From assembly GCF_008041935.1 (NCBI RefSeq), contig NZ_VKAC01000001.1, positions 248,001 to 312,000 of the forward strand: a stretch of 64,000 nt of DNA, given 5' to 3'. A program made the position numbers and the translations under genes. This document shows positions 23,130-53,678 of this stretch, one piece after another. Every line of letters starts with the position of its first letter. The first letter of the stretch is position 1. The notes beneath the pieces are model-generated. The model did no database searches. It saw only the letters and a list, made by a program, of their open reading frames with translations, and had not been told where the DNA came from. The DNA comes from Quadrisphaera setariae (GTDB taxonomy: Bacteria > Actinomycetota > Actinomycetes > Actinomycetales > Quadrisphaeraceae).

Positions 23130-23232
23130 CCACTTTCCTCAGCAAGTGCGGATCCTGCTCCCTCCCTTTCCGCACTTGCCGCGGCAAGTGCGCTTCTGCC
23201 GGACCTGTTGCCGCACTTTCCGGGGCAAGTGC
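23130..23232. repeat. Triplet-palindrome cluster A (three 20-bp near-palindromes)
   Basis: Copies start at 23130 (CCACTTTCCTCAGCAAGTGC), 23172 (GCACTTGCCGCGGCAAGTGC, a perfect palindrome) and 23213 (GCACTTTCCGGGGCAAGTGC); spacing is 42 then 41 bp. By the asymmetric base pair (TTTCC/GGCAA), copies 1 and 3 read opposite to clusters B, C and D. It fills most of the 262-bp gap upstream of the nuclease gene; nothing else is recognisable there. Confidence 0.9.
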
Positions 23233-23362
23233 AGAGAGGGTGAGGCGGAGGACGACGACTGCGAGCACGTCGTCCGCCCACAGGGCCGGTCCGCGGCCCT
23301 GACGTCCACAGGCGCAGCTGCGAGGGCGCGGTGCTCAGCGCCGGAGCGGACACCGTTCGCGC

Positions 23363-24253
23363 ATGCCGAAGAAGCGCCCCTGGCCCGACGAGCTCCCTGA
23401 CGTCTTCCGCGTCTCCGACGCGCTCGAACAGGGAGCCCTCACCCCGAGCCAGTTGCGCGACCCCAGGCTGCGCCGCCTCTTCCACGGGGTCTGCGCACCG
23501 CGGTCCGTCCCCGTCGACCACGCCCTGCGCTGCCGCGGGGCAGCCCTCGTCGTCCCGCCGTCGGCGCGGCTCACGGGGACCTCGCTCGCGACCGTCGCTG
23601 GAGCACCGCTCGCCGAGACCTGGGACGACGTCGAATGGGTCGTCCCGCACAGCGACTGGCGCACCGGCCCCCGCGGAACCGTGCTGCGCGCGGCGTCGCG
23701 CGGTCCGCTCGGTGACACGACGTGGCGCGGTGTGCCCACGGCGTCACGTGAACGCATGGGTTTCGACCTCGCGGCGAGGTGCGGCCTCGAGCTGGGGACC
23801 GCTCGGCTCGACGTCGTCGTCCGCGCACGTCTGCTGGACCTCGACCTCTTCAAGGCCTGGCTCCTGACGCGGCACGACGACGGCGTCGTCACCGCCCGCG
23901 CGGCCGCCGACCTGTGCGACCCCCGAGCGGAGTCGATCCCCGAGTCCCGCTGCCGTGTGCGCCTCACGCGCGCCGGGTTCGCGGTGGAGCCGCAGGTCGA
24001 CGTCTTCGACAGCAGCGGCGTGTTCGTCGGGCGGGTGGACCTGGCGCTGATCGAGTGGAAGATCGCCGTCGAGTACGAGGGCAAGTGGCGCACGCTCGTG
24101 GAGGGACAGCTCACCGCTGACCGGCTGCGCCTCGACGCTCTGCGCCACGCCGGGTGGAAGGTCGTCCACATCACGGCGGAGCGGATGAAGGGGCGCGGCG
24201 AGGTCGAGGACGCCGTCCGCCGCGCCGTTGCTGAGCGCATCGCCGGCGTCTGA
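23363..24253 (+). CDS. Vsr/DUF559-like endonuclease-domain protein with AbiEi-type N terminus
   Basis: A 296-residue orphan protein of a type widespread in actinomycetes. The N-terminal part (about 12-60, VSDALEQGALTPSQLRDPRLRRLFHG) resembles the winged helix of AbiEi-like antitoxin-domain proteins. The C-terminal part (about 190-290) looks like a PD-(D/E)xK/Vsr-fold nuclease: ESRCRVRLTRAGF, GRVDLALIEWKIAVEYEGKW with Asp about 226 and the Glu-Tyr-Glu, and DALRHAGWKVVHITAERM. The biological role of these proteins is unknown. By eye it has more A/T-ending codons than its neighbours. It is flanked by triplet-palindrome clusters on both sides (130 bp upstream, 20 bp downstream), the reason it is highlighted in the findings. 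Confidence 0.75.
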   Translation: MPKKRPWPDELPDVFRVSDALEQGALTPSQLRDPRLRRLFHGVCAPRSVPVDHALRCRGAALVVPPSARLTGTSLATVAGAPLAETWDDVEWVVPHSDWRTGPRGTVLRAASRGPLGDTTWRGVPTASRERMGFDLAARCGLELGTARLDVVVRARLLDLDLFKAWLLTRHDDGVVTARAAADLCDPRAESIPESRCRVRLTRAGFAVEPQVDVFDSSGVFVGRVDLALIEWKIAVEYEGKWRTLVEGQLTADRLRLDALRHAGWKVVHITAERMKGRGEVEDAVRRAVAERIAGV

Positions 24254-24273
24254 CTCCCGTCCCCCCCGGCGGC

Positions 24274-24376
24274 GCACTTGCCGAGGAAAGTGCGCCAAAA
24301 CCTGCCCTCCTTCTCGCACTTGCCGGGGAAAGTGCGAGAAGGAGGGGCTGAAAGGAGCACTCGCCGCGGAAAGTGC
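24274..24376. repeat. Triplet-palindrome cluster B
   Basis: Copies start at 24274 (GCACTTGCCGAGGAAAGTGC), 24316 (GCACTTGCCGGGGAAAGTGC) and 24357 (GCACTCGCCGCGGAAAGTGC); spacing is 42 then 41 bp. It occupies the gap between the convergent nuclease and galK genes. Confidence 0.92.
24305..24346. terminator. Extended hairpin centred on the middle copy of cluster B
   Basis: The middle palindrome is extended outward to a 17-bp perfect stem (24305-24321 with 24330-24346) with an 8-nt loop. It lies between the 3' ends of the nuclease gene (+) and galK (-), so it can terminate transcription from both sides. Confidence 0.6.
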
Positions 24377-35387: not shown

Positions 35388-35416
35388 CCCGGCGGCCCGC
35401 TCTCCCATCCCTTCTT

Positions 35417-35519
35417 GCACTTGCCGCGGAAAGTGCGACACACGCACCTGCCCTTCTCGCACTTGCTGCGGAAAGTGCGCCATCAAGGGCCAGGGAAGGG
35501 CACTTGCCGCGGAAAGTGC
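35417..35519. repeat. Triplet-palindrome cluster C
   Basis: Copies start at 35417 (GCACTTGCCGCGGAAAGTGC), 35459 (GCACTTGCTGCGGAAAGTGC) and 35500 (GCACTTGCCGCGGAAAGTGC); spacing is 42 then 41 bp. It is located between the convergent S9 peptidase gene and sdhB, on the peptidase side of the sdh terminator. Confidence 0.92.
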
Positions 35520-47846: not shown

Positions 47847-47921
47847 CCTCCCGGACCGCAGCCGGGCGCCCGGCTGCGGTCCGGGAGGGTGTCGGAACCG
47901 CAGCCGGGCGCTCGGTTGCGG
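47847..47921. terminator. 42-bp perfect palindrome plus a degenerate second copy
   Basis: Positions 47847-47888 are a perfect palindrome (21-bp arms, no loop) with the core CCGCAGCCGGGC/GCCCGGCTGCGG. At 47898-47921 the same core recurs with two changes that leave G-T pairs. They lie between cdd and deoA and can form two stable hairpins acting as terminator or attenuator. Confidence 0.7.
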
Positions 47922-53575: not shown

Positions 53576-53678
53576 GCACTTGCTGCGGAAAGTGCTCCAT
53601 GCGCGCCGCAGGAGCTGCACTTGCCGCGGAAAGCGTGACAAGGCCTTGCGTCGGAAGCGCACTTGCCGCGGAAAGTGC
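53576..53678. repeat. Triplet-palindrome cluster D
   Basis: Copies start at 53576 (GCACTTGCTGCGGAAAGTGC), 53617 (GCACTTGCCGCGGAAAGCGT, right arm degenerate) and 53659 (GCACTTGCCGCGGAAAGTGC); spacing is 41 then 42 bp. It fills the gap between convergent cofG and monooxygenase genes. Confidence 0.9.

Follow-up and report, generated by a model that had tools for sequence, protein, structure and literature searches.

A Vsr-Like Nuclease Family of Actinomycetes Bracketed by Private Palindromic Repeats, a Candidate Counterpart of REP/RAYT

RAYT genes flanked by inverted REPs (repetitive extragenic palindromes) form the units termed REPtrons (PMC2817692). As described in PMC2817692 and PMC3733652, REP/RAYT systems are characterized by many solitary REP copies per genome, by covariation of the palindromes with the proteins, and by a preference of the solitary copies for gene ends. 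The RAYTs (REP-associated tyrosine transposases) are HUH enzymes, reported to work on single-stranded REPs (PMC8266576). Here, we describe a gene of another kind, located in a 64,000-nt stretch of the Quadrisphaera setariae genome (contig NZ_VKAC01000001.1, positions 248,001 to 312,000; hereafter the window), which encodes a nuclease and lies between two arrays of a 20-bp palindrome, GCACTTKCCNNGGMAAGTGC. The little-studied family of this nuclease, usually bracketed by private palindromes, appears to be a counterpart of REP/RAYT that is new and unrelated to it.

Both the window gene and its family share with the REPtrons the palindromes on each side and the many solitary copies in the genome; palindrome and protein co-vary and solitary copies favor gene ends, as in the published accounts of REP/RAYT. 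We liken the element to a REPtron and do not call it one, because its enzyme combines a Vsr/EDxHD-like nuclease and an AbiEi-like half in place of an IS200/IS605-group HUH tyrosine transposase, and because the palindromes lack REP-type tags (GTAG was found within 8 nt of 2/68 palindromes and CGTC of 4/68). In addition, the helical spacing of the palindromes points to double-stranded sites, in contrast to the single-stranded REPs. An earlier note on the window had drawn the REP/RAYT parallel, which holds for the flanking and solitary copies and fails for the transposase and the tags. TIRtrons are also similar in having a gene between inverted repeats that in part constitute a dispersed family, whereas their enzyme is a tyrosine HUH protein and their inverted repeats are long, with no 41/42-nt arrays in the description given (PMC3733652).

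The Nuclease Gene and the Palindromes of Its Genome

At three or fewer mismatches, GCACTTKCCNNGGMAAGTGC occurs 12 times in the window, whereas 100 shuffles yielded 0.09 copies on average and never more than 1. The copies are arranged in four triplets, A to D, in which every step is 41 or 42 nt (Table 1). Clusters A and B bracket the nuclease open reading frame (ORF), and the 12-copy map confirms the statement of the earlier note that no other single gene of the window has such a cluster on each side. The same note described the flanks as inverted. Judged by a G/T asymmetry, copies 1 and 3 of cluster A (TTTCC..AGCAAG and TTTCC..GGCAAG) are indeed opposite to cluster B (TTGCC or TCGCC..GGAAAG), whereas copy 2 is symmetric and has no orientation, so the inversion applies to two of the three copies.

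Genome-wide, the palindrome was found in 108 places at up to three mismatches (8 for a reversed-pattern control) and in 81 places at up to one mismatch (0 for the control). Rfam returned only microRNA models, all below their gathering scores, which were dismissed as chance matches. The 30 clusters read in the window genome comprise 21 pairs, 8 triplets, and 1 quadruplet. All 40 distances between neighboring copies are 41 or 42 nt, which, with chaining restricted to 39–44 nt, means that none was 39, 40, 43, or 44 nt. As approximately 41.5 bp corresponds to four helical turns, it is reasonable to suppose that the sites lie on one face of double-stranded DNA.

With respect to gene context, 14 of these clusters are convergent, 15 co-directional, and 1 divergent, the corresponding numbers for all gene pairs being 38, 80, and 23 (n = 141). 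These counts come from a crude gene finder, which counted B and D among the co-directional clusters, even though the galactokinase gene next to B is on the minus strand and the sequence around D contains two facing stop codons. The location of most clusters behind gene ends, together with the long arms seen in some flank palindromes by a perfect-palindrome scan, is what transcription terminators or RNA hairpins would display, the nuclease gene then being a neighbor by accident. We regard this explanation as highly improbable, given that the sequences are species-limited, that the 41/42-nt spacing recurs, and that one gene family is regularly bracketed whereas control genes are not (see below).

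The AlphaFold model of the window protein has a pLDDT (predicted local distance difference test) of 93.1. Its C-terminal 110 residues match the fold of the homing endonuclease I-Bth0305I (3r3p; Z 10.6, root mean square deviation (rmsd) 2.6, 96 aligned residues) and that of Vsr (1cw0; Z 8.5, rmsd 2.4, 99 aligned). I-Bth0305I was also the sole solved chain matched by a profile of 16 homologues (E 0.0009). The match of the N-terminal half to the AbiEi antitoxin 6y8q is looser (Z 8.2, rmsd 5.8, 175 aligned, model residues 4–186); the AbiEi-like protein Rv2827c (1zel; Z 6.5) is the top Foldseek match of the window protein (E 7e-4). These folds bear out the description of a Vsr-like nuclease with an AbiEi-like N terminus given in the earlier note. 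The similarity to the type IV antitoxins AbiEi and Rv2827c ends with the N-terminal half: unlike AbiE, the window locus has a nuclease domain that follows it, arrays on both sides and dispersed, and no AbiEii toxin gene among the tested neighbors, which are metabolic (Peptidase_M42, galactokinase, and GalT). Similarly, the gene differs from that of I-Bth0305I in being a free-standing ORF, between the Peptidase_M42 gene and the galactokinase gene (minus strand), not in an intron, intein, or cut gene; I-Bth0305I itself appears in PMC3943268 among the intron-associated, phage-type homing enzymes, and dispersed palindromes are not part of its description there.

The conserved positions of the nuclease domain are E194, D226, E237, D/E239, and G240. 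By analogy with Vsr-like enzymes, we take these residues to be catalytic. Among 63 homologues with flanking repeats, E194 and G240 are present in all (63/63), D226 in 62, and E237 in 59.

Family libraries add little on function. The Pfam family PF18741 (MTES_1575) matches the window protein under its curated cut-off (E 7.8e-5); among 27 family members it matches 24, DUF559 matches 14, and NCBIfam models match 1. PADLOC models of AbiEi match up to 13 of the 27 homologues and not the window protein, while other PADLOC models match fewer members (PDC-S37, 8; mREase_II, 7; PDC-M15A and DpdF, 1 each). None of the searched libraries (Pfam, NCBIfam, and PADLOC) assigns the relatives of the window nuclease a tested role. 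The window genome also encodes a second nuclease, 57% identical to the first (locus L002, contig C11, 1486–2370), which has a different array, GGCACTCTCCCGCGCCAGTGCCG, on both flanks.

Table 1. Coordinates of the nuclease gene and the palindromes in the window
Feature	Position	Strand	Remarks
Nuclease gene, 296 aa, ATG start	23363..24253	+	AbiEi-like N-terminal half fused to Vsr/EDxHD-like nuclease domain; ORF list, Pfam, AlphaFold, fold matches
N-terminal half, aa 1–186, AbiEi-like, presumed DNA-binding	23363..23920	+	Fold matches 6y8q, 1zel
C-terminal nuclease domain, aa 187–296	23921..24250	+	Fold matches 3r3p, 1cw0; profile match to 3r3p
Palindrome cluster A, 5' of nuclease gene	23130..23232 (23130–23149, 23172–23191, 23213–23232)	.	
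Palindrome cluster B, 20 nt past nuclease stop codon	24274..24376 (24274–24293, 24316–24335, 24357–24376)	.	
Solitary cluster C, three copies	35417..35519 (starts 35417/35459/35500)	.	Site differs from G001, G002 by ~3 kb
Solitary cluster D, three copies	53576..53678 (starts 53576/53617/53659)	.	Absent at matching G001 site
Solitary type-C palindrome pair (GCAGCCGGGCGCCCGGCTGC type), 42 nt apart	47858..47919 (47858–47877, 47900–47919)	.	Type flanks nuclease at the window gene's locus in G003, G005
G001, G002, G003, and G005 are Quadrisphaera relatives of the window genome.

Bracketing Across the Nuclease Family

Relatives of the window nuclease were found in 76 of the 99 genomes searched in the order (E 0.001). 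A strict perfect-palindrome scan missed many flank repeats and was replaced by a repeat-sharing test, in which the 500 nt upstream of each homologue were locally aligned with the 500 nt downstream in both orientations. In the first set, a repeat common to both flanks was found for 27 of 30 usable loci at a score of at least 22; another locus was at the end of its contig. The three misses include a split gene of a Quadrisphaera relative (G003, see below), whose outer flanks share a repeat by eye. The named set, composed of the best 80 of 447 loci (78 testable), gave 39/78 at a score of at least 20. Merging into a non-redundant set of 107 genes, which overlaps both sets and enters the split gene into the tree as its longer fragment only, gave 61/107 at a score of at least 20 and 63/107 at 19 or more. 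More distant homologues, picked by hand down the homologue listing with flanks unseen, and thus not a random sample, had a both-flank repeat in 35/40 cases at a score of at least 20; four of those positive at 19 or more are weak (L231, L256, L267, and L268).

Shared flanks were rare among controls at the score of 20: 5 of 311 other ORFs of the same loci (7 reach 19 and 12 reach 18), 1 of 30 TetR genes of the same genome group, and 2 of 138 sliding window segments. All five ORF matches are direct repeats, presumably coding paralogues.

On the tree of the 107 homologues (63 with a shared repeat, 4 weak, and 40 without), the positives are scattered throughout and most of the negatives cluster, with one Pseudonocardiaceae branch being negative in 24 of its 25 members. 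An Amycolatopsis branch of homologues of about 319 aa (L079, L084, L086, L091, L096, L098, and relatives) has intact active-site-like residues and no flanking repeats, and is possibly a domesticated form.

The spacing seen in the window recurs in the family. Among positives having a direct repeat within a flank, the best offset is 41 or 42 in 28/49, a number that includes close relatives, compared with 1/22 such negatives; autocorrelation of inverted 14-mers in the flanks yielded no clear peak.

The layout is relatively constant. In the 99 positives (score of at least 19), the upstream repeat ends at a median of 113 nt before the start codon and the downstream repeat begins at a median of 12 nt past the stop codon. 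This layout bears on whether the palindromes are operators, through which the AbiEi-like half would repress its own gene and a regulon, the arrays being regulatory. The upstream repeat is 40–200 nt before the start codon in 90/99 positives, as expected of operators, and AbiEi and Rv2827c are reported to bind their own promoters at 23-bp inverted repeats (PMC7319586). The second array, however, lies just behind the stop codon (at no more than 50 nt in 83/99), only 1 of the 30 clusters of the window genome is divergent, compared with 23 of the 141 gene pairs (by the same crude gene finder), and sister species differ in whether a site is occupied. TetR, a family known for autoregulation, rarely showed shared flanks. 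We therefore consider operators distinctly unlikely.

Private Pairs and Differences Between Species

The flank repeats of two loci are alike in 25/25 pairs with at least 80% protein identity, compared with 9/1928 pairs below this level. Each nuclease group at this identity owns a private repeat sequence, while the layout and often the 41/42-nt spacing stay the same. The expectation of the earlier note that orthologues would be flanked by the same palindromes is thus borne out for the presence of a shared repeat and not for its sequence, which differs from one nuclease group to another.

Copy numbers follow the same pattern for most of the repeats counted. For three of them, scattered copies are abundant only together with the matching nuclease. 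In five species, the Amycolatopsis repeat was counted 261, 263, 279, 324, and 191 times; none of 22 other genomes exceeds 7, and these include three Amycolatopsis genomes whose closest homologue is 52–53% identical. Four genomes contain 110, 97, 89, and 71 copies of the Rhodococcus/Prescottella repeat, and 23 others contain 0–2. In the window genome (G000) and its Quadrisphaera relatives (G001–G005), the type-A palindrome has 81, 47, 103, 0, 5, and 0 copies, respectively (one or no mismatch). The type-C palindrome has 31, 32, 27, 172, 15, and 78 copies in these genomes and 0–2 in six outgroup genomes; it is most abundant with the type-C gene and less so in sister species. Thus, the suggestion that genomes without the gene lack solitary clusters stands for three repeats, with few or no copies in the absence of the matching nuclease, and only in part for type C, which lingers in smaller numbers in sister species.

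The two types meet at one syntenic Quadrisphaera locus, occupied by a type-A nuclease in G000–G002 and by a type-C nuclease in G003 and G005. The nucleases are 61% identical and the adjoining DNA is 75–82% identical. Hence the types replace each other at a single locus, and the palindrome abundance shifts alongside. At this locus in Quadrisphaera sp. INWT6 (G003; L150, 9228–11159), an insert of other DNA, about 1.1 kb long, splits the nuclease.

A further Quadrisphaera repeat, CCCGCGACGATCAMG, is a short pattern with a background of 7–17 matches in nine genomes; at up to one mismatch it has 70, 81, and 46 matches in G002, G003, and G004. In G002 and G004 it flanks nucleases (L261, L264, and L248). 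These paralogues carry the repeat CGCGACGATCAMG, whose spacing in L248 and L264 is 32–33 nt instead of 41/42 nt.

Copy numbers also bear on the proposal that a homing gene was inserted into pre-existing host arrays, with the flanks being halves of its target. A homing endonuclease, I-Bth0305I, is the closest solved relative of the window nuclease; it is said to dimerize on nearly 60 bp of DNA (PMC3943268), and two palindromes placed 41/42 nt apart span 61–62 bp. On the other hand, the genomes examined contain a single close nuclease copy and tens to hundreds of arrays, the palindromes are intact on both sides, and for three repeats the arrays are abundant only beside the matching nuclease, which makes this proposal very improbable.

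Solitary arrays differ between related species. Cluster D is missing from the matching site in G001, where facing stop codons are a few bases apart. Among five Amycolatopsis species, three have the element at site 1; A. azurea lacks it there, and it was not seen in A. pittospori, which has other sequence. At site 2 it is present in A. regifaucium only (1/5), and at site 3 it is absent from A. orientalis only (4/5 occupied). Orthologous arrays also vary by whole units, the copy numbers at one Quadrisphaera site being 4, 2, and 3 and those in Prescottella 3 versus 2.

Some further sites show other rearrangements. At the cluster C site (35396–35451 vs. L145 and L144), G001 and G002 contain a different sequence of about 3 kb, which has palindrome pairs on or close to its edge and may have arisen by rearrangement between arrays; beside this site, G002 has an inverted solitary pair of the CGCGACGATCAMG-type repeat (L144, about 1200–1256). 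Site 5 of A. orientalis (L281–L284 block) contains a four-copy array, CCCGCAGTTAGCGGGCTAAACGCG, resembling the flanks of nuclease L136, and a sister species has a TCCTCTGGATGCGG element there.

A Probable Nuclease-Plus-Palindrome Element

We think it probable that the gene and its two arrays constitute one nuclease-plus-palindrome element, of which the solitary arrays are non-autonomous copies of the ends; such an element would be REPtron-like with an unrelated enzyme. The earlier note had suggested a two-part system of the nuclease and its palindromes, and at the level of association the bracketing and copy-number tests support it.

Several observations weigh against this reading. Two of them had been named in the earlier note as contrary to a two-part system and were found in part. 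First, 40/107 homologues lack flanking repeats. The active-site-like residues E194, D226, E237, and G240 are intact in 40/40 of them, so the nuclease persists, and is probably of use, without arrays. Second, G003 has 81 matches of the further repeat, while none of its examined nuclease matches is flanked by it (L257 has another repeat, the C2 gene has type C, and L334 has none); possible explanations are a lost gene, a draft gap, a foreign nuclease, or arrays that persist or spread without a nuclease. Similarly, type-C copies remain in four species in which no type-C nuclease was found, G003 has the most type-C copies yet a split nuclease gene, and A. regifaucium has 263 copies of its repeat although the repeats beside its nuclease are nearly decayed (score 13). 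No second close copy of the window gene was found in its own genome, and at position 243 the window protein has R, compared with H in 44/63 positives. As for movement, the presence or absence of solitary arrays may reflect either gain or loss, although Amycolatopsis site 2 has the element in just one species of five; the Prescottella sites comparable in the blocks read are all shared and differ in copy number only, and visual inspection of the few junctions read (cluster D and the Amycolatopsis sites) revealed no target-site duplication.

Some of these points would fit a domesticated host or defense function, in which the arrays hold or guide the nuclease, e.g., by serving as self-marks or as sites for bridging DNA, with spreading as a side effect. 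The nuclease gene is kept at syntenic loci in five Amycolatopsis and in five Rhodococcus/Prescottella, the active-site-like residues are retained even in array-less homologues, and PADLOC models beyond those of AbiEi match some family members (see above). However, the replacement of palindromes in close relatives, the presence or absence of solitary arrays, and the changes in unit number resemble mobile repeats, and the tested neighbors of the window gene are metabolic. A host function is therefore unlikely in our view.

Under the reading of a nuclease-plus-palindrome element, the AbiEi-like half would bind the palindromes of about 20 bp, probably with dimers aligned along the same side of the helix, given that 41–42 bp corresponds to about four turns. 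A break by the Vsr/EDxHD-like domain may then follow at or beside an array or a target, and repair could place a copy of the array elsewhere, usually close to a gene end, where little harm would be done. The nuclease would in this way be the mover of the arrays. Protein and palindrome would change together, leaving a private pair in each close lineage.

In its widest form, the proposal is that these are widespread two-part selfish elements of actinomycetes, in which an AbiEi–Vsr-like nuclease spreads private, helically phased arrays by break and copy, with nuclease and palindrome switching at the same locus. This would be an independent reinvention of REP/RAYT by a non-transposase acting on double-stranded DNA, an extension to which we give an even chance. 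A literature search, with most subscription journals outside its reach, found no recognized report in which this nuclease family is connected with dispersed palindromes.

The private DNA array provides a concrete partner, and hence a testable function, for many nuclease relatives that are common in the order searched. If the proposal is true, it would account for families of intergenic palindromes in high-GC genomes, the REP-like way of life would have arisen from an unrelated nuclease, and the many natural protein–DNA site pairs of the family would allow changes in recognition to be studied.
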